This document shows positions 433 to 63,524 of a DNA stretch of 64,000 nt, one piece after another. The DNA is taken from contig NC_067286.1 of assembly GCF_020740795.1 (NCBI RefSeq), forward strand, positions 3,467,990 through 3,531,989, read 5' to 3'. The notes beneath the pieces were generated by a model. The model did no database searches. It saw nothing but the letters and a program-made list of their open reading frames with translations, and was not told the DNA's origin. This DNA comes from Apus apus. Its lineage: Eukaryota; Chordata; Aves; Apodiformes; Apodidae. Numbering within the stretch: the first letter of the stretch is position 1; every line of letters starts with the position of its first letter. Position numbers and translations under genes: made by a program.

Positions 433-15221
<14,789 letters not shown>

Positions 15222-15285: not shown

Positions 15286-15374
15286 GGGACCGGGAGGGGC
15301 GTGGGGACCGGGGAGGGGCGTGGGGACCGGGGAGGGGCGTGGGGACCGGGGAGGGGCGTGGGGACCGGGGGGCC
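15286..15374 (+). repeat. 20-bp G-rich minisatellite, about 4 copies, in TPCN2 promoter
   Basis: Exact tandem copies of a 20-bp unit (ggggaccggggaggggcgtg and shifts of it) beginning about 65 bp upstream of the TPCN2 start codon. Each unit carries three runs of four G, so the G-rich strand meets the simple pattern for G-quadruplex formation several times over. The G-rich strand is the non-template-sense (+) strand relative to the minus-strand gene. The near-perfect identity of the copies suggests recent expansion. Confidence 0.9.
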
Positions 15375-15462
15375 CGCCCGCTGCACATGACCCGCGGCCG
15401 GGGGAGGGCGGGAGCGGGGCGGGATCGTTCCGCCGCTCCGCCCGCCGCCGGGCGGGGTTGCC

Positions 15463-15723
15463 GTGCTGCCCTCCGACGGGCTCTGCCCTCCGACGGGCTC
15501 TCCCATCCGGAACCGGCTGCCCTCCGGAACCGGGTACCCTCCGACGGGCTCTGCCCTCTGACGGGCTCTCCCATCCGGAACCGGCTGCCCTCCGACGGGC
15601 TCTGCCCTCCGACGGGCTCTCCTATCCGGAACCGGGTGCCCTCCGACGGGCTCTCCCATCCGGAACCGGCTGCCCTCCGACGGGCTCTGCCCTCCGACGG
15701 GCTCTGCCCTCCGGAACCGGCCG
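15463..15723 (+). repeat. 17-bp GC-rich minisatellite, about 15 copies of alternating variants
   Basis: Tandem array built from two interleaved variants of about 17 bp: ctgccctccgacgggct and ctcccatccggaaccgg. The order of the variants itself repeats (roughly D-D-E, D-D-E), giving a higher-order period near 51 bp. The array lies 240-500 bp upstream of the TPCN2 start. The E variant carries CCGGAACCGG, which contains an ETS-like GGAA core between two CpG-containing CCGG sites. Confidence 0.9.
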
Positions 15724-15830
15724 CCTTCCCCCCTTCAGGACCGAGCGTTCGGGGGCGGTCTCTGGCGAGGAAGCCGTTCTGCGAGGAAGGCTGTGGTGAA
15801 AAAGCGTTTAGTTCTTCACCCGAAGTTGAC

Positions 15831-38402: not shown

Positions 38403-44026
<5,624 letters not shown>

Positions 44027-51859: not shown

Positions 51860-52860
51860 TGGAAAACGCTCCCAGCCTTGGCGAGGGCTGGAGATGCCTT
51901 CTCGTGGTTGCCCATCGACTTTGCCGGCCTTGAGAACTCGGCGCCGGCTCCGAGGGGAGGCCCCAGGGCCCCTCCGGCTGCTTGAGGGCGGGAAGGGCGG
52001 GAGAGAGGACGGCCCTGCTCGGGACTGGCCGCCTCCAGCGGGACCTGTTTGCTGCCCGCCGGGGCACGGAGCCCTCCCGCTGCCTCCAGGGGCAGAGCAG
52101 CTCGCCCTTGACCCCGGGAGGAGGAGCCGAAGCGCACGCCCCGAGAGGCAGCGTTGCCTCCACCCGGTGCGACGGGGGGAAGGAGGAGTTTCCCAGCGGG
52201 CTGAAGAAAACCAGAAGCCGTTTTTCCGCTTGGGCCGGCCCCGGGGAAGCTCCGGGGGCAGCTTTTCCCCAGCCGTGCTGCCCCTGCCGGGCTCCTCCGG
52301 GAGCGGGTCCGCCCCAGCCCCGTGTGCCCGGGCCTGGTCCCGCCCCGCGGGCTGCTCCTCGGGGCCGGGGACCAGGAAGCGGGAGCAGGAAGCGGCAGCA
52401 GGAGCCCGGGGCAGGGAGGGAGCATGGCGGGCGGCGGCCCGGCGGTGAGGGCAGCCCCGGGGGACGGCGGCAGGACAGGGAGAGGAGCGGGGGAAGGAAA
52501 GAAGGAAGGAAGGACGAAGGGGTGTGGAGCGGCCGCCGAGGGGGCGGCCCTGCTGTCGGGGCGGTGCCCAGGGCCGCTTGACCCCCGTGAGGCGGGAGGG
52601 CGGAGGGGCCGCCCGGGGCCGGCTCCCCTCAGGCTGCCTCGGTGTCAGCTCGGCCCGGGCCCGAGGCCCCTGGGGCCCTCCCCGCGGTTTCTAGGCGGGC
52701 AGGGCCCGCCGAGGCTGCCCCCCCGAGCGGCCCGGGGGGCTGGTGTTCCTCCGGAGGCTGCTCCCGGCAGCTGGGTTGGACTGAACGTGGAGGCCCCTTC
52801 GCCCCCGCCTGGCGTTGTTCAGCTTTTCTGGGACCTCCGCAGCTGGTTTTTCTAGGCCGG
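51860..52860 (+). promoter_or_regulatory. CpG island / ZDHHC13 promoter
   Basis: GC- and CpG-dense block around the ZDHHC13 start codon (52424), with A/T-rich sequence on either side. A (GGAA)n-like run at 52494-52517 lies just inside the first intron. Long open frames on both strands in this block are composition artefacts. Confidence 0.8.
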
Positions 52861-55800
52861 GTTGGTTCTCAAGTGTCTCTGCGTTTCCCAAAGCTGCTGC
52901 AAGGCACGGGGGGTGGTTTCCAGCCCAGCAGCCTCGCTGGGGTGAAGGTCTTGTGTGGGGTTGCCAGCTCTGGAGGCGTTTCCTGCCTTTGTAATTTAGC
53001 CTGATGGACCTTAAACATCTCCCTTAGGGCTTCCCATGCCCCAGTGCCCAATGAAGGGATCAGTCTCTTCTCAAGGGGTTTTAACGGTGCTTTAAATGAG
53101 CTTCGTGTTTCTGGCAACAGAGCTTGGTCCACGCTGTGCCTCTGGTAAAGAGGGAGGTGTGGTCTGCAGTGTGTAAATAATGTTTGTTGATGGGCGGTTT
53201 TGCTTGCCAACAGTGTAAAAACCATTGCCGTGGGCCTCATCGACCTCATGTGCACAGCTGTCCTGGTGCCCACGGGGATAAGGATGTAGGGGTGCTACCA
53301 GGACCCTACCCGATTGTTGAGGACCCTGGCACCTGTGATATCGTCAAGGCTACACAGTGAGTAAATATTCTGTGTGTGCAGAGTGCTGAACGTGATGGGA
53401 GTGTCCTCAGATGTGAGCCAGGTTGGGTATCTTTATGAAGGGAATTCATACAGCTCCGTTGTCTCCCCTTCGTGAAAGAAGAAAAATCACTTAGAAGTAG
53501 TATTGTAAATATTTTTATCATAAACCATGGTATCTCAGCCAGGTTTGTTAGGTAGAACTACTTATGAAGGCTCAGCCCAGCTCTTTGTAAGACTTCCATT
53601 AAATGCAATGTGGAGTTTGTTCAAGTAGGAGCTGCTGGGTGATGCTTGCTGAGGATTTCTTCAATGTTTGGCTGTCTCTGAACTGGAGGGTCCTTAACAA
53701 ATAAATGATAAGTAAATGAATATGGGTTTCTTTTCTCATTGAAGGTATGGGATAGTAGAGCGATGCAAAGAACTGGTAGAAGCAGGATTTGATGTCCGAC
53801 AACCAGACAAAGAAAATGTGACTCTTCTCCACTGGGCAGCAATAAACAACAGACAGGAGCTGGTTAAGTAAGCTGGAGAGTCCTGGTGAAAGTTCTGCCA
53901 CTGTTACTTGTAATCACTTTGTTGTTGTTATACTGGAAAACAAAGGAAGTGTTGCTTGAGAAGAAATGCAGGAAATTCAAATCTTAACCCAATTACCCTG
54001 GTGAAAATGTCACTGAAATGTAAAGTTACTGCAGTTTCTTTATATATAAAATCCTGTAGTGTGTTAAATAATTCTGTTTCTCTGGGTTTGGTTTGTTTAA
54101 CAAAGATTAAAGCTTATTTTATTAGTGCCTTGCTAATTATTATATTTTTTTCCTCAAACATTTTCTCAAAGCAGCATTTTTACTGCAAAAAATGCTCTTG
54201 TGCATTTACTCCTTTAGTGATTTATTTTGTTTTTTTCAGTATGAGCTGTTTACTACTAGAGCTATCTTATCCTTAGTATAACGTTTAAATATTTTATTGT
54301 GTCTGTTCTTAATCTTACTGTGTTCCTTTTACACAGGTATTATATTTCTAAGGGTGCAGTAGTGGATCAGCTTGGTGGAGATTTGAATTCAACTCCCCTT
54401 CACTGGGCCATTAGGTAATGCTGCTTGCAACTACTAATTGTAAATCTGTTAATAGTTACAGTAGTATTTTGTGTAGCACAGCAGTGGTCACCTTAAATCC
54501 AAATCTGTGGTATGTTGATTTTTATTTTTCTTTTTAAGGTATAAGGAATTTCACAGCATGTCTATAATAATACTGAAATCTACTCTCTGATTCCTGGCAA
54601 CTGTGCAGGCCACAAAGTTGTCATGTACCTGTGTTTTAGCCACTTGGACTCAGGTTCTGAAGTTTCCCTAGGGATGAAACTGTTCAGACTTTGCCCCACC
54701 AGTTCTGCCTTACTGGGCAAAAAATAGTATTAGGGCACTGAAGTTAGCTAACTTAGTCTTCTGCCAAGCAAAGTTAGATACTTCTTCTGAGAAAGACTGC
54801 TCACAGGACAAATCACAGTAAAATAACCATTGTATTTGAAATTACCAGTCTTCCTTACACTGACTTATTGAGGTATATATTTAACATAATTTTCTGGTGC
54901 ACACTTTTAATTAAAAAAAAAAAGTAATTTCCTGAGTAAAACCCGGAGAATCAAGAAGGAAATTTTAAAAATGGGGGAGGAAGGGCAGGGTATTAATGAG
55001 AAGCATTAAGGCAAATGCTTCCATTAAAATTTCCAGCTTTTTTTGTCATCTCTGTGGTTTTATTTCATCTATTGTTACAGACAAGGACACCTGCCCATGG
55101 TGATGTTGTTGCTGAAATGTGGAGCAGATCCCAGTCTTATAGATGGGGAAGGATTCAGCAGCATTCATCTAGCAGTGCTGTTCCAACACATGCCCATTGT
55201 AGCTTACCTCTTATCAAAAGGCCAGGTATGCTGTTGATGTCCCAAGTATTGTTATCTGCTTGTGCCTGTGTGTAGGATACATTGCAGAATTAACTTGTGC
55301 TTTCTAGATGATAAGTAGGTGCTTAACAGCTATTTCCCCATGCCATAAGTTCAGAGAATTTTATTTTTTTTTAAATATACTTGTATATCTTTTATACTCT
55401 CCCCTGTTCTTGTCATTCCTGCACAATTTAGAGTGTTTAAGGAGGGTTCTTAAGACTGTTTAGGTTTGTGGTGCTGTGTAAGTAACAACTTTTAAACCTG
55501 GTAACAAAAAGCAGTATATGCTGGTTGATTACAAGTTTGTAAGTAAAAGCCTGTGCAATTGTCCATCATTTGAAGCATGCAGAATAGATGATCAGACTAG
55601 GTCTGAATTTTTAATTAGAAATGTCTGTCTTCAGTTTTTATATTGTATCGACTCTAGTTGATGTCTGCTTAGCTTACATCTGAAGTAAGCAGAACTAGTG
55701 ACAAGTGTAACAATTTGCTAATAAAAATAAGAGGAGAATTCCTACATGATCTAGACTGATGCTTTGAAAACCTGTGTATTAGGATTTAGAGAGTTGGTTA

Positions 55801-58800
55801 AGTTAAATTCTTCCTCATAAAGCTCTTTAGAGTAACTGACTTCTGGAACGTAGGTGTGGATGGTGTATATCACAAAGTTAAGGAAGTTTTTAGCCAACCT
55901 ATCATCTACTAAAAAATCCCAGTGATTAAACATTTATTTTAACTAAATGTGCTTTAATGTAATGATGGATGGAGGTGGGGAGGAGGGAAACTTTCACTGA
56001 GAAGGAAGGCAATTAGGTAACACGAGTTAGATGTTTTAACAATTACGTATGGAGATACATAATCAATCCTCTTTTGTTGTCTAAATTAAAAAAGGACAAA
56101 AAATTTGGTTGTCATGGTTCCCTTAAAAATAACCATAGTGGAGGCAGCCTGTTCTGACTCAGAAAGGGGGAAGAAATTGTTTAAATGAGTGTTTGCTTCT
56201 AGCTGGTTTCATTTGATTTCTTTCCACTCCTGCATTGAAGCTAAACCTGTTGTGTACCTCTGAATCTGCCCATCTCTTTGTTTCCTGAAATCATTGGTAA
56301 TCACTTGCTTGTTACCTTTTTCTCAGAACATAGACACAACAGACCTCAATGGGCAAACACCTTTAATGTTATCAGCACAAAAAGCTATTGGGTAAGTAAT
56401 GAATAATTTAAAAAGAATCAATTTTATTGTACCCCAGAAGCAGTGAGGTGATTTTTTTTTTTCATATGAAAACTTCCTGTTAAACTGACATTCCTTTTTG
56501 ATTTTAGTAGTACTAAAATATGCAGTACTTCAAAGATGAGGAGTTATGAAGTACCTAATTGGATATAGCAACGAAGGTTTCTAAAGGAGTTTAGGTTTAT
56601 GGCTGCACTGGTTGCAGTGTTGTTGTGCTTTTCCAGAAAAGAAGACAAATGGAGGTAGACACAGTATAGTACATTTAGAATAAAAAGAATGTGGAGGTGT
56701 AAGTTTATACACAGTGTGGTAGGAGGTTATAATCTGTGTATATAGCTCATAGTGGTTAAAATGGTGAAATAACATAGTCTAGAGAAAAAGTATTGAGGGC
56801 AGGTCCTGAATTATAAACTTCGATCTATCTTTGATGAGTGTTCTGAGACAAGACATTGTGTATCTGCTGGTATTTCTCAGATGGGAACAGTGATTTTCAG
56901 AAGGTGTTAAAAAATTTCATCTCCGCTCTAGATCCTACTCAGTTTGTTAACTTTTATACTTTATTTTCTAGACCAGAACCCACGAGGTTTCTCTTGAAGT
57001 TTAACCCCTGTCTCAATGCTGTAGACAGTGTTCAAAAGAACACTGCCCTGCATTGGGCAATAGCATCAGGAAACACTGGTGCAGTGGACCTGTTGCTGGA
57101 AGCTGGAGCTAGCCTGGACATAAAAAATGCCAAGGTACAATTTCTTTCATGATCCTTCACTCTGTGTGGCATGAATGTCTGAAATGAATGTAAAGAGAAA
57201 TCTGAGTCCTCTCCCCTTTGGATATCCTTTGGAATAGGTGTTGAGTAAAAGCAGGTGTTCTTAGCCTTTCCCCAAAGGAGTTAGCAGCTTTTTGGTGGTG
57301 TGGCACAAAGAGAGGCTTTACAATATTCATTTAATGAACAGCCAAGCCTTTCAGTCACTCAGCATAACTGTGTCCTTTGCAGATTCTCCCCATTTTCTTT
57401 TTCTTTTCCTCTTTTTTTTTTTTTCAGTTGGCTGTTCAAATCATTGCCATAAAGAGTAATGACTTTGGCCAGACTTTAAAAAATAAGTGTCTCAGTGTCC
57501 AGTGAGACTCTTAAAGACTTATTTTAAAAGATGTGTGTGTCATCCTGTGAAAACCAGTGTTTGGTTATACCTTTGTACATTCAAAAGGGCTAGTCACATA
57601 CTGAAGTCTTCAGCCTAATATTTGCAAAAACTGATAATATGTTATAATAATTTTGAAACCATTGATTCTTACAACTAGATAGATAGGTTTGTACCACGTA
57701 GTTAGTTATTCAGCATTTCTGTATGAAGCTGTGCAGATTTTCCATCTGCCACTTCTTTCTATTTGTTTGTATGACTCTTAGGTTATTGCTGGTTTAAATA
57801 GTTAACACAAGCAAGAAACCTTCCCTTTCAGTAAGCCTGTAGTATTCTAGCAGTTTAGTGTTTCAGGTTATTGGAGGCAGCCCAGCAGATAACTCAGATG
57901 GATGCAATCTGATTGCAAGTATCAGTTTACAGAAGTACAGAGCACTGAATTAAGCATGTGAAAGCTCTGAATTTAGCATACCCTTTAGACTTATGTGGGG
58001 AAGAAAAGAACAGTTTCCCACACCTTGCTTTAAAAACGAGGAAGTAACTGCCAAGTTATTTTAATTATAGCTATAATTATTTATTGCTTTAGTTAAAAAG
58101 GAAAGCATTTATGTGTGAACTGCATAAAGAAAGAAACATTTCTGTTGTTAAAGGGAGAGACACCACGTGACCTTGCCTGTCAGAGTCAGAATGGCTTCAT
58201 CCTTTACATGGTGAAAGAGGAAGAAAGGATAAGGAGCAGAAGAAGTAGCAGGTTACTGAAGATAGTAGAGAAATACGAGGTAATTTCACAAGTAATAACT
58301 AATGGAAATAAAGCTGCAGCATTCTATGTTTCAAAAAGAGTTAAGTTGCAAATTATTCTATCATCTTCTAAGGTTTCTGAAATTGAGTGCACAAGAGTAA
58401 AATTCTTTAAAAGCATGTGGCAGTGGTTTGGGTGGGGGTCTTGTGTGGCCTTGTTCCCCTCCCCTGTGTGTCACTTTGTCTTACCTACCTTGAGTCTTTC
58501 AGCATTGGCTACTACGTTATCTGAGTACTGAATACTTTGTCATCATTTATCAATAATAATTTTAATAGCTCTTCCTGCTGTTGGCATCGTCCTTGACGTT
58601 CATGTGGGCCATAGGATACATAATGAACTCAAGTTCTGATTCTTGGCTTTTGAAAGGAGGTCTCCTTCTCATCCTGCTCTTTGTGATGACTCTGTTTGTG
58701 AGGTTTGTGGCTTTTTCTCTCTTTATATATTTGTCATAGATGCCACATAAGGGATCTAATGCAGTATTCTTTTCAGAGCCTAGTTTTACTTAATGTAGAA

Positions 58801-61800
58801 AATACCTCCTGAGAAATGGTTGCAGAGTGTATGAGGGATTTAAATATATTTACTGTTTAGAAAGACCATAGAAATCAAATAGTTTCTTATCACCAAAATA
58901 ACTGAAAAAAAACCACTGAAGTGTTTAAGCAGTCTGTTAGCTAATTTTAATGATAGAGTGTCATTGAAGGTCTGCACTTGGTAGACACAGATATCCGTTC
59001 ACAGTGCTCAGAAATGTGCTTTATCTCAACTTTTCTTTCTGTGTTTGTGACACAGAATGAGTTTTAATGAGCTATTCCCTCCCCCTCTGCTGCCCAGACC
59101 TCCCAGTGTTACCCTAAGCTGTTTGGCAGTTTCCTGCTTTCTTCAGCAGTTGCTGCCACACTCTGTGTTCATTGAGATGGCAACGCTGTCAGTGTGCAGA
59201 GATCAGCATTTCTGATGTATCATACTAGGCTGGAACAAAGCACTCTTCAGTGTTAATTTTGCCTTGTTAACCCACTACACATCTGGCTAAAAAATGCTTT
59301 TGAGTGACAATTCTTGTTTGCTTGAAGAGGGACTTGAATTATACTGTGCCTGTGAAGTTTTTAAAATAACAAACCAGATAATTTATACTCTATGGAGTTA
59401 TGTTTTAAAAGCATTTTTAATAAATACCTTTCTTTTTCCTTTAATATTCTTTCAGGCAGTTTATAGGGTACAAGAATCTAAGGTATCTTCCCACAGCATT
59501 TCTGCTAAGTTCAGTTTTTTGGATGTTCGTGACCTGGTTTTTCTGGTTCCTGCCTTATATCCTTTGTATTCAAGAAATGCATTAGAACTCTCCTTACTGT
59601 TCCTAATAAATCCCAGTCTGGTCATGCAAATAGCAGTGATCAGTCCCAGGTCACCCTACATGGCTGTTAATGTCTGGTAAGTTGGTTTATTTGCATTGGG
59701 AAGAGGTGAAATAATTTTGAATTCAAGTTAAACCTGAACTAAAGATCTGTACCTTCTTTTATCCTTAGCAGATGCTTGTGTACAGTTCTGAAGTATTTCT
59801 TAAATTACTGGAGTATCAAAATGAACTTTATTGTCTCTGTTACCATCTTGGTGTGACTCTTCAATCTTCCTCATGGAGACTCATGCAGTAATGTATTTTT
59901 GGCATGCAGTATAAGCAGATAGCACATGCATTCAGCATAATTTTCAAAGCATCTATTCTTTCTGAAATGACAAGGCTTGGACAGTTGGTGGTATTCATGC
60001 TTCTGCTTTTAAAAAGAAAAACAACACGCTCCCCACTCCCCAAAAAACAGGAAATTTCTCCATGCCCCTTCAAAATTGATCTTCCAGTCTCCTGTCTATC
60101 TTTATTCACAGGTTATGCTGCATCCTCAGTGCACAGGGCATTACTGTCTACCTTTCATTGACTTTCTTTGAAGAGGTTTTGCACTCATGAGTAAAACAAA
60201 AACGTGTTACTTTACACTTGTTTTTCACTGTCCTGCTCTTCTCTTACACAGGGGGCATCTGTTTGTTTATTGATTAAGTTTTTGTGAAAAGGCCTTTAGG
60301 GAGGTGCTTAGAACTGTAAATAATTTTCTACTAAACCAGCTATAATATATTGCTACACAAGTTTAATGTTTAATTACTTCATTCTTCAAGTGGCATTTTC
60401 TTTTGTACTGTTCCAAATTAAGGTGTCCTTAATAGAATTATCAGGAATAACTTCGATGAACTGATCAAGGATGTTCCTGCTGGGGATACGTGCATATGCT
60501 TGTCCAGATTAAAATGTTAGTCAGTCTTGCATTGTGAAACTTTAAGGTTTTCTTGATGTCATCTAAATCAAAAGGAAAAAATTCCAAGAATAGGGGTTTG
60601 AGTCAGATGCTTGGCTGAAGACAGCGTAGTGACGTTCTTGAAGGTCTGACCATAGCTTGGTGAGATGGGCAAGTGCATCATTTTCCATTTTACTATCCAG
60701 CCCTTTTTCTCATCAGTGTCTTCTCCTTCTGGAACCTGTCACAGATCTGAGTGTTAAAAGAAGTGCTCAGTATTTTAGTTATCTGTGTTTATGTCTAAAT
60801 GAAAATTCAGCCATTCAAATGAGGACTCCTTCCAGTTCCAAAAAACAACAGAAGTGCAAATAAACCAGTAATATCCACAGGAAATCATTTTACATACGTG
60901 CACACTGCAATTGCATTGCAACCAGCACTGCTATAAGGCTGTTAGTAGCACAAATATTTCATAATTTATTATCTTGATTTTAATTAGAGCTACTTTGTGG
61001 TGTTTTAAACTCATAATACAAAAAAACCCAATGTCGAGGTTGCAGTACTTGAAGAGTTATTTACACTATGCAGTTCATAAGAGTGGCTGAGTGGTCACTG
61101 GAGATCAAACTCAGGCTTGAGCTCTCAGACTGCTACTTGATGGCATCTTGAACTATTCCTAAGGAGTCTGAGCTCTCAAGTTCAATTTAATTGGTATGAA
61201 ATTTATCCCACTCCTCTGGAGATAGTTCATCTTGGCATGTTTTTTTCACCCTTTCACCTGGCGTACGAATGTTTTTAGTCCATGGTGTAAAAGTTGTGTT
61301 CCTGATGACTAGATAGATGTAATTGGTCTACGAGAGAAGTTGCAGCAAAAACTATGTATGAAAATTCAAGTTTGCATCTCTGGACTTCATGAGAGATTAA
61401 TTCTCTCCACATACAGTCATTAAAACAGTCAGTTGCTGGGTAAAAGCAAAGGGTATGCAAGAAAAAAAGAAGTCAGATTAGACCAAGAATTTGTTATTTA
61501 ATTATCAGGGTTTTTCTAATATACTTGTGAGTGAAGAAGGGTTCCTAGTACCTTCAGAAGTGTTTTGCAGTGTGTGCTTCACTTGTTTGAGTGACAAAAG
61601 TAGTTCAGGAATGACTCAAGTTGCATTTTTCTATCGAAACCTATTCAATTGTCTTAGCTGAAACAAGTGAGGACAAGACTGAGAAAGCAGTTTGAGTAAG
61701 AGCCTGTTTGGTGACTTAGGGGTGTGTGCAGCAAAGAAATCTCAGAGCTGCTGGAAGCTTGGTAACTACGGGTGTCTGATTGGTATTGTTTAAATAAACC

Positions 61801-63524
61801 AGAAAAACTTCAGAGGGGGAAAAGGCAGTTGTGTTTATTTTATATCTGTTAAATATTCAAAGGCAAAAGGTCTGCACTCTGATAATGAAGCTGAGAGGGA
61901 GCTGTATTTTAAGACTTCACTCCAGTGCTCAAACTGTACAGAATGTTCAGCTTCTCTGATCTGGTGGCCTCTGAAGGACAGAGAGGATCCTACTGTAAAA
62001 GTGAAAGTCTGTATCTTCCTTTTTGTATGCTGCTTGTAAAATGACATAAATAATCTTGGAATATTTTGTCTGACAAATAACGGTGATATGAGCATATATA
62101 TATATAAGAATACATATAAGAATATATTCCTTAACCTGAGCATTACATGTAGGCAGTACAATTATTGAAATCACTGTCATGATCTGTGTGATGGGTCTTC
62201 TTTATTATTTCTATAAAACTTGGAGAACTGATCCTGGGTATATCAGGACTTCAGAAGAAGAAAGAAAAGAGGTAGGTGAAACAAATGGAAGGACTAACCT
62301 GGTGCAGCACAAAATTGGTAGATTTGTTTGTCATTATGTGCAGCTTTGCTAATTTTGAAAGCAGTGAAACCCTTTTTTAAGTTATTTTCTTTGTCATTGA
62401 ACAATGTAGATAATAGATAATTTCTTTTGATTTTTGTGCTTAAGGGTTGTGTAAATCACAGGCTGTTTCATAGCTCCGCTTTAGAAGGGCAAAAAGAAAT
62501 AATAGCAAATCAATGGGTAGAGAATTCAGTATTTGGTCTCTCCAGCCTGTGGATTAAGGAAAGCATTCTTTTTATCATCTCTTTGTTCTGCATGAGGTTT
62601 TATTTCTTCAGATTGCCAGGGAGAATAAACTGCAAGTAAATGAACTAGTAAACATTGTCTATCTCGTACTCATTAAGGAACAGTAAATAAGGCAGCTCTC
62701 CTCTTCTCTCTGACTATAGGAGAGGTACCTTGTATGTTAATACCATCTCATTTTTAAGAACATTTAATTCACATTATTAATTTTGGCAACATAGAGATAC
62801 TTTTCTGAATAATCCTGCATCACTGAAGTTGCATTAATCTGTTATGCTTCTCCTGGACCTTTTTAAAAACCCAGTGCTTATTCCTATTGGTGCTTGGCAG
62901 CCAAAATGCTTATGAACTGCAAAAAGCCTAATGTGAAAATCTTCATACATCTTGAAAATGTGATCCAAATGCTAGCATGAACTTCTTTGTCTTTCAGAAC
63001 ATTGTGGCTCTTGCAGAAGCAGGTTGCTTGGACTTCAGAACATTTTGCACCTCATGTCTTGTAAGTGAAGCTTTGCTATTTGTTTTCTAACCTTTTCGTT
63101 TTCTTTAGTCAATACTGCTGTAAAAACTTCTTCCCTCATTTCTTGTCATGCAGGTGTGATTTGCACAGTTTGGTCTATGTTACTTAGATTTCTTTTTCTT
63201 GTTTTATGGTGACAAAAGAAATGCTGTGAGATCCTTTGACTGTAATATTAATAAAAAAGCATTGTTATGGTGGTTGGTGTTTCAATCACTTTTTTTTTGG
63301 TAGAATTAAATTGTATAGTTCTCATCTATGTTCTGTGTTGTGGGGTCTATTAAACAGTAATTGATTCTCTAAACTTTGAGCAAAATAGATGCTTTTGCTC
63401 TGACTCTTGTTTTCCTTCATCCTCCCCTAGGTAAGGAAGCCTCTGAGATCCATGCACTGCCTTGCTTGTGATTCATGTGTGGCCAGGTACGACCAGCATT
63501 CTCTGTGGATTGGACGGTGTGTAG
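52424..63524 (+). CDS. ZDHHC13: ZDHHC13 (HIP14-like), ankyrin-repeat DHHC palmitoyltransferase; first 13 coding exons, 3' end outside window
   Basis: Golgi/ER membrane protein with N-terminal ankyrin repeats that bind substrates and a DHHC cysteine-rich domain that transfers palmitate (family knowledge). Coding exons: 52424-52444, 53214-53356, 53745-53867, 54337-54414, 55081-55225, 56327-56391, 56972-57134, 58154-58279, 58569-58702, 59456-59556, 62147-62271, 62998-63060, 63431-63524. This is 460 codons plus one base. Ankyrin repeats span about residues 52-285 ([39 protein letters not shown]). Membrane segments follow ([51 protein letters not shown]; and one in exon 11). The cysteine-rich domain begins at FRTFCTSC (residue 420 region) and continues [20 protein letters not shown]. 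The glutamine in DQH identifies ZDHHC13 rather than ZDHHC17. Oddities: serine 453 replaces the catalytic cysteine, and the intron after exon 10 looks U12-type AT-AC. The N-terminal 55 residues diverge most from human. Confidence 0.97.
59557..62146 (+). other. U12-type AT-AC intron of ZDHHC13
   Basis: The exon ends CTGCCTT and the intron opens with ATATCCTTT, the exact minor-spliceosome 5' splice site. A perfect TTCCTTAAC branch site lies at 62127-62135, with its branch adenosine 12 nt before the terminal AC at 62145-62146. No polypyrimidine tract is present. Splicing here makes codon T|AT (Tyr367) and keeps the frame. The resulting segment between the conserved FLP and YFYKTW motifs has the same length as I recall for human. 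A weak GT-AG alternative also keeps frame (see findings). Confidence 0.8.
62094..62108 (+). repeat. Short (AT)n run
   Basis: Seven-unit AT stretch about 20 bp upstream of the U12 branch site in the ZDHHC13 intron. Confidence 0.7.

Follow-up and report, generated by a model that had tools for sequence, protein, structure and literature searches.

The DHHC enzymes take their name from the catalytic cysteine of their motif; what, then, can a protein of this family be when that cysteine has become a serine? The question is raised by the ZDHHC13 gene of the swift Apus apus, in a window of 64,000 nucleotides (the whole stretch of DNA that was analysed; contig NC_067286.1 of assembly GCF_020740795.1, positions 3,467,990 to 3,531,989 of the forward strand). 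The original prediction, made from the letters alone, had placed a D-Q-H-S motif at 63491-63502, as residues D450 to S453 in a spliced exon with an intact frame, and had offered three explanations together: a lineage-wide conversion to a non-catalytic scaffold, a serine-based variant, or a sequencing error or polymorphism.

ZDHHC13 lies on the + strand of the window as 13 exons running from 52424 to 63524, with 460 codons and no stop, and this frame bears out the predicted motif. The exons were placed with a mammalian ZDHHC13 query, splice sites and phases then being taken from the DNA; the swift protein is 65% identical to this query. The assembled 460 residues are 100% identical, over their whole length, to the 618-aa isoform X2 of Apus apus ZDHHC13 (P0001), and the residue numbering of the original prediction was therefore right. 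The gene reads as follows:

52424..52444, + strand: coding part of exon 1 (MAGGGPA), by frame and splice reading, in agreement with P0001
53214..53356, + strand: exon 2, by splice sites and frame
53745..53867, + strand: exon 3, ankyrin, with N89 (equivalent to zDHHC17 N100) and the bird-specific Q92/E93, by frame and alignment
54337..54414, + strand: exon 4, ankyrin, with W119 (equivalent to zDHHC17 W130), by frame and alignment
55081..55225, + strand: exon 5, ankyrin, by splice sites and frame
56327..56391, + strand: exon 6, ankyrin, by splice sites and frame
56972..57134, + strand: exon 7, ankyrin, by splice sites and frame
58154..58279, + strand: exon 8, end of the ankyrin domain and linker, by splice sites and frame
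58569..58702, + strand: exon 9, transmembrane, by frame and AlphaFold model
59456..59556, + strand: exon 10, transmembrane, by frame and AlphaFold model
59557..62146, + strand: intron 10, U12-type AT-AC, with donor ATATCCTTT, branch-point-like TTCCTTAAC and acceptor AC
62147..62271, + strand: exon 11, transmembrane, with the DPG motif D395-G397, by frame and alignment
62998..63060, + strand: exon 12, start of the cysteine-rich domain, with zinc ligands C425 and C428, by frame and alignment
63431..63524, + strand: exon 13, core of the cysteine-rich domain, with zinc ligands H438, C439, C442, C445, H452 and C459 and the DQHS motif, by frame, alignment and structure match
63491..63502, + strand: the DQHS motif, D450-Q451-H452-S453, with the Ser codon TCT (63500-63502) at the nucleophile position

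Exon 13 has ctag at its acceptor and gtgag at its donor site, and the motif itself reads GACCAGCATTCT (GAC CAG CAT TCT, the codons starting at 63491, 63494, 63497 and 63500). Pfam finds ankyrin families together with PF01529 (42.2 bits against a cut-off of 28.7; the match is partial because the window stops inside the domain), and these two elements, combined with the identity to a protein named ZDHHC13, identify the gene as the orthologue. A pseudogene is ruled out by the intact 460-codon frame, the splice sites and the full-length orthologues. The donor and branch-point sequences of intron 10 fit the U12 consensus; since this intron is of the AT-AC type, a gene finder restricted to GT-AG introns would break the ZDHHC13 frame.

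The rest of the window holds a few other recognizable elements. Upstream of ZDHHC13, three + strand frames at 41003-44023 match PF01222 (ERG4/ERG24), the C-terminal piece with an E value of 6.4e-49; we take them to be DHCR7. A reverse transcriptase fragment occupies 7407-8114 (RVT_1, E 2.8e-11 for 7407-7778) and presumably belongs to a CR1-type retroelement, and a G+C-rich minisatellite cluster with periods of 19, 17 and 51 bases lies at 15286-15729.

How widespread is the serine? Three protein searches (best 120 of 3065, best 120 of 293 and best 120 of 2850) yielded a union of 203 distinct ZDHHC13 proteins, which were aligned. Among these matches listed, the motif is DQHS in 113, DHHS in 13 and DQHC in 76; the one remaining row is a panda isoform without this exon (P0188), which aligns meaninglessly here and is left out of the non-bird counts. 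Position 453 is serine in all 126 bird rows among the matches listed, from 104 named species (125 of the rows are birds by name, and P0004 was assigned by similarity), and cysteine, always as DQHC, in all 76 informative non-bird rows. The serine is present in palaeognaths (Struthio, Apteryx, Dromaius, Rhea, Crypturellus), in landfowl and waterfowl (Gallus, Numida, Alectura, Oxyura) and in many groups of Neoaves (swifts, hummingbirds, pigeons, cuckoos, storks, penguins, raptors, owls, parrots, songbirds). The 77 non-bird rows come from crocodilians, turtles, squamates, mammals (including a monotreme and marsupials) and one newt, with no fish among the matches listed. The alignment across birds, crocodilians and turtles that had been proposed as a check accordingly separates serine in every listed bird from cysteine in the others, and the statement that mammalian ZDHHC13 carries DQHC was correct for 42 of the 43 mammal rows among the matches listed, the other being the isoform that lacks the exon. 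Nor do close relatives of the swift all carry cysteine, as they might have done: a second swift, Chaetura pelagica, has serine, as has every bird row listed.

An active DHHC S-acyltransferase is expected to possess both the nucleophilic cysteine and the first histidine of the motif, its general base. Bird ZDHHC13 lacks the former in each of the 126 rows among the matches listed; at the latter, residue 451, the swift and 113 of the 126 listed bird rows have glutamine, the other 13 have histidine, and no third residue occurs. Outside birds, too, glutamine occupies this position in all 76 informative rows among the matches listed. The change of Gln451 to His, which produces DHHS, is seen in three bird lineages: eagles, Mycteria and Thryothorus. 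It appears that in birds a well-preserved ZDHHC13 enzyme has been turned into something that works without the catalytic cysteine.

For trees and rates we used the 139 of the 203 rows with at least 97% coverage, reduced to 110 by dropping same-group rows at least 98.5% identical (81 birds, 12 mammals and 17 others, namely 16 non-avian sauropsids and one newt). In the maximum-likelihood tree of these 110 proteins the birds are monophyletic, and position 453 changes only once, on the bird stem, with zero changes within the 81 birds and zero outside them. The original prediction is partly upheld: the lineage-wide option stands (all sampled birds, one stem event, no reversal), and that of an error or polymorphism falls. 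The His451 origins are separate, one in a single eagle clade (P0005, P0006, P0017, P0037, P0099), one in Thryothorus (P0083) and one in Mycteria (P0018); the last is 98.9% identical to P0008 and was filtered out, and the third DHHS lineage is therefore missing from the tree counts. Over the whole protein, residues 12, 92, 93 and 453 alone split the birds from the rest (97% and 90% purity, among the matches listed). Residues 92-93, which are QE in birds and mostly LD elsewhere, lie three and four residues past N89, the equivalent of the Asn-100 with which zDHHC17 contacts client peptides. A change of LD to QE so near a client-contacting asparagine could possibly mean that docking evolved in step with the nucleophile's loss.

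Has the rest of the catalytic domain decayed? The eight zinc ligands (C425, C428, H438, C439, C442, C445, H452, C459) are unvaried in the bird rows that have a letter there (124 to 126 of 126, among the matches listed), just as had been predicted from the swift alone. D450 is present in 126 of 126 bird rows among the matches listed, as are P396 and G397 of the DPG motif, with D395 in 125. On the bird tree the eight zinc ligands, D450, N464, T548, E551, K432, R435 and W455 show no change and D395 shows one; outside the tree, one incomplete sequence, P0044, carries Cys at 455. A set of 18 zinc, pocket and acyl-CoA-side residues changed once in birds, against a mean of 84 changes and a minimum of 22 in 20,000 random 18-site sets drawn from residues 380-618, a contrast that is illustrative rather than blind, as the set was chosen by family role after the conservation table had been viewed and omits the variable second Thr of the TTxE motif. 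Eight of its members are structural zinc ligands. The roles of K432, R435 and N464 in this set are in part our assumption. The idea that the fold is under constraint draws support from the tree changes, the 18-site contrast and the zinc ligands alike. The TTxE motif itself, whose register was aligned by eye, is incomplete: none of the 125 bird rows among the matches listed has lost T548 or E551, but Ser replaces the second Thr in 120 of these 125 and in 74 of 76 rows outside birds. On this alignment the departure is ancestral to ZDHHC13 and not a bird trait. This second Thr position is residue 549, past the end of the window, and among the matches listed it is Trp instead of Ser only in swifts, a hummingbird and an owlet-nightjar (P0001, P0002, P0014, P0023), so that the swift's lineage has one more change next to the active site.

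Rates of change are less eloquent. The maximum-likelihood ratio of the cysteine-rich to the ankyrin domain is 0.91 in crown birds; it is 0.73 for the non-birds together, 0.78 for the mammals and 1.49 on the bird stem, where five changes fall inside the cysteine-rich domain (443, 453, 456, 466, 468). By parsimony the ratio is 1.09 in birds and 0.93 outside, a ratio of ratios of 1.19 with a 95% bootstrap interval of 0.69-1.94. No clear relaxation of the cysteine-rich relative to the ankyrin domain was found in crown birds, in a comparison whose power is limited by its 51 sites and fast maximum-likelihood tree. The domain has not clearly decayed, and the pocket is largely kept. Two AlphaFold models give a confident ankyrin domain and a membrane body for which six long helices are predicted, with pLDDT below 50 in both for the active-site loop 447-463. 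An essential residue lost from a fold that remains under selection, as these protein-level tests suggest, is the pattern of a pseudoenzyme.

With respect to chemistry, exon 13 aligns with solved DHHC enzymes and S453 falls on their nucleophile. Its best match among solved structures is 7khm, a DHHC20 chain that reads DHHS (third when residues 380-618 are the query). The orthologous mammalian ZDHHC13/HIP14L shares with the bird protein the ankyrin-plus-membrane architecture, the cysteine-rich domain and the D-Q-H of the motif, but has the catalytic Cys and reported acyltransferase activity where birds have Ser. The human ZDHHC13 C456S and DHHC20 C156S (PDB 7khm) mutants carry the identical substitution at the identical position; these, however, are engineered dead controls, whereas in birds it is the wild type (126 of 126 rows among the matches listed). 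The yeast enzymes Swf1 and Pfa4, which unlike bird ZDHHC13 have the first His and no ankyrin domain, resemble the birds when mutated in that the motif Cys is absent, the engineered change there being Cys to Arg. Partial activity of these yeast mutants is reported in a review (PMC8107437). In DHHC20 the triad-like site is described as Asp153-His154-Cys156, with the palmitate carried on the Cys (PMC8059564), and in a kinetic assay C156S is reported inactive, acylation of other cysteines in trans having been seen with this mutant (PMC11471619). The 7khm crystal of the non-reactive Ser156 form has served as template for full-size acyl-CoA complexes; in 7khm itself the Ser oxygen is given as 6.6 Å from the acyl carbon (PMC9739150). 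Human ZDHHC13 C456S is described as leaving CTNND1 palmitoylation "significantly compromised" (PMC12646662). The natural DQHC of zDHHC13 is said to support less autopalmitoylation than zDHHC17 and yet to palmitoylate huntingtin and ClipR-59 (PMC8059564); a 2017 survey of the family called the activity of ZDHHC13 still doubtful (PMC5359973). In the mouse, loss of ZDHHC13 is reported to cause hair, skin, bone and other defects, and a catalytic-motif mutant, AAHC, to have skin like that of the knockout (PMC11854935).

The ankyrin domain, for its part, retains the equivalents of the zDHHC17 residues Asn-100 and Trp-130 that characterize a domain able to bind the zDABM. N89 is Asn in 119 of the 119 bird rows with a letter among the matches listed, and 115 of 118 keep Trp at 119, the exceptions being three songbird models (P0140, P0143, P0149) with Phe. 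Bird ZDHHC13 is in this respect like ZDHHC17/HIP14, whose ankyrin domain has the same client-binding Asn and Trp. Mammalian zDHHC13 is reported to bind SNAP25 and CSP without acylating either (PMC9800311). In flies, according to one study, overexpression of Hip14 rescues the loss of Patsas, the HIP14L orthologue, and the HIP14 and HIP14L orthologues act in one pathway; its authors float a division of roles in which one protein binds clients and the other palmitoylates them (PMC12795455).

We think it probable, from the sequences and by analogy with the engineered mutants, that ZDHHC13 is a pseudoenzyme in birds as a whole, a scaffold on which clients dock by the ankyrin domain and whose acyl-CoA site is largely intact but does not turn over. 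The general-base His of the triad would already have been Gln when, on the bird stem, the nucleophile changed once from Cys to Ser, to be kept thereafter in all sampled birds; this step was probably an easy one, since all 76 informative rows from outside birds, among the matches listed, have DQHC and so lack the general base already. The protein would then most likely lack the acyl-enzyme (ping-pong) reaction of the DHHC S-acyltransferases, its canonical thioester chemistry presumably being lost as in the human ZDHHC13 and DHHC20 C-to-S mutants. Its N-terminal ankyrin domain may still dock clients with the [VIAP][VIT]xxQP motif, while the six-helix membrane body and the zinc-finger domain would stay folded and probably hold an acyl-CoA unturned. 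Such a protein could serve in the Golgi as a platform where clients dock, either handing them to its paralogue ZDHHC17 or competing with it for them. As mice with the AAHC motif have skin like that of the knockout, a loss of activity in birds would need compensation. The idea that the loss tracks the disappearance of a skin client was also considered, and is weakened by chicken TGM1, which retains its palmitoylation cysteines (PMC8535770). Several facts tell against a pseudoenzyme: the conserved D450, Q451 (Q/H) and acyl-CoA-side residues are equally to be expected of a working active site, D-H-H-S has arisen in three bird lineages, mammalian zDHHC13 can still palmitoylate huntingtin and ClipR-59 with its general-base His absent (PMC8059564), Swf1 and Pfa4 retain part of their activity with Arg for the motif Cys (PMC8107437), eight of the 18 conserved sites are structural zinc ligands, the bird stem combines the raised ratio with five changes in the domain, and the AlphaFold models give the active-site loop little confidence. 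Perhaps, and here we speculate, the birds' wild type is the laboratory trap form, with acyl-CoA and client bound and the serine put to use, either in a non-turning-over acyl-CoA sensor or scaffold or in a slow, oxyester-forming serine acyltransferase (cf. the D-H-S of the eagles and two other lineages). We know of no DHHC-family example of oxyester-forming serine chemistry.

Could the bird protein nevertheless be an acyltransferase by other means, through an O-acyl (oxyester) intermediate on Ser453 or by direct attack of the client thiol on an acyl-CoA positioned in the site? Most of the pocket is retained, D450 is invariant in the 126 listed bird rows, Q451 gives way only to His (making Asp-His-Ser in eagles, Mycteria and Thryothorus), and Swf1 and Pfa4 are said to tolerate in part the loss of the motif Cys (PMC8107437). 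We consider it unlikely all the same, given that the same C-to-S change is reported to inactivate DHHC20 (PMC11471619) and compromise human ZDHHC13 (PMC12646662), that the general-base His is absent from 113 of 126 bird rows among the matches listed, and that the Ser oxygen of 7khm sits 6.6 Å off its target (PMC9739150). It is more doubtful still that the enzyme was simply dispensable, DQHC being already weak, and that the protein was kept for something else altogether, ion transport or trafficking for instance, its active-site residues merely holding the fold. A reported transport of Mg2+ by HIP14L counts in favour of this, as does the share of zinc ligands (eight of 18) among the conserved sites. 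The low autopalmitoylation relative to zDHHC17 (PMC8059564) and the doubts voiced in 2017 (PMC5359973) point the same way, but D450, K432, R435, W455, N464, T548 and E551 are also unchanged in the bird tree.

Relaxed selection on a decaying enzyme heading for loss could appeal to the higher point estimates for the cysteine-rich/ankyrin ratio in birds (0.91 against 0.73, with 1.49 on the stem) and to the swift lineage, where a further motif position, 549, has gone from Ser to Trp. It is nonetheless very improbable: the crown-bird bootstrap interval spans 1, the 18 key sites have a single change, and the Ser, once fixed, has not changed again. As for a mistake in assembly or sequencing, or a polymorphism of one swift, nothing speaks for it except that the window is a single assembly; all 126 bird rows among the matches listed, drawn from many assemblies, have serine, which reduces the chance of this to practically nil and rules it out as an explanation.

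We found no report of the serine motif of bird ZDHHC13 among the papers listed in the literature, mainly open-access and at abstract level, on ZDHHC13 with DQHS, birds, chicken, inactive mutants and DHHC pseudoenzymes; a term search of the survey of DHHC family evolution (PMC5359973) met none of the words bird, chicken or inactive in the text it covered. A vertebrate class in which the cysteine has been replaced and nearly all the rest of the domain kept amounts to a natural, long-running test of the non-catalytic roles of ZDHHC13. It bears as well on how a DHHC protein may function without the acyl-enzyme step, the question raised by the two yeast enzymes, and it counsels caution over the current database names, which present the bird protein as an active palmitoyltransferase.
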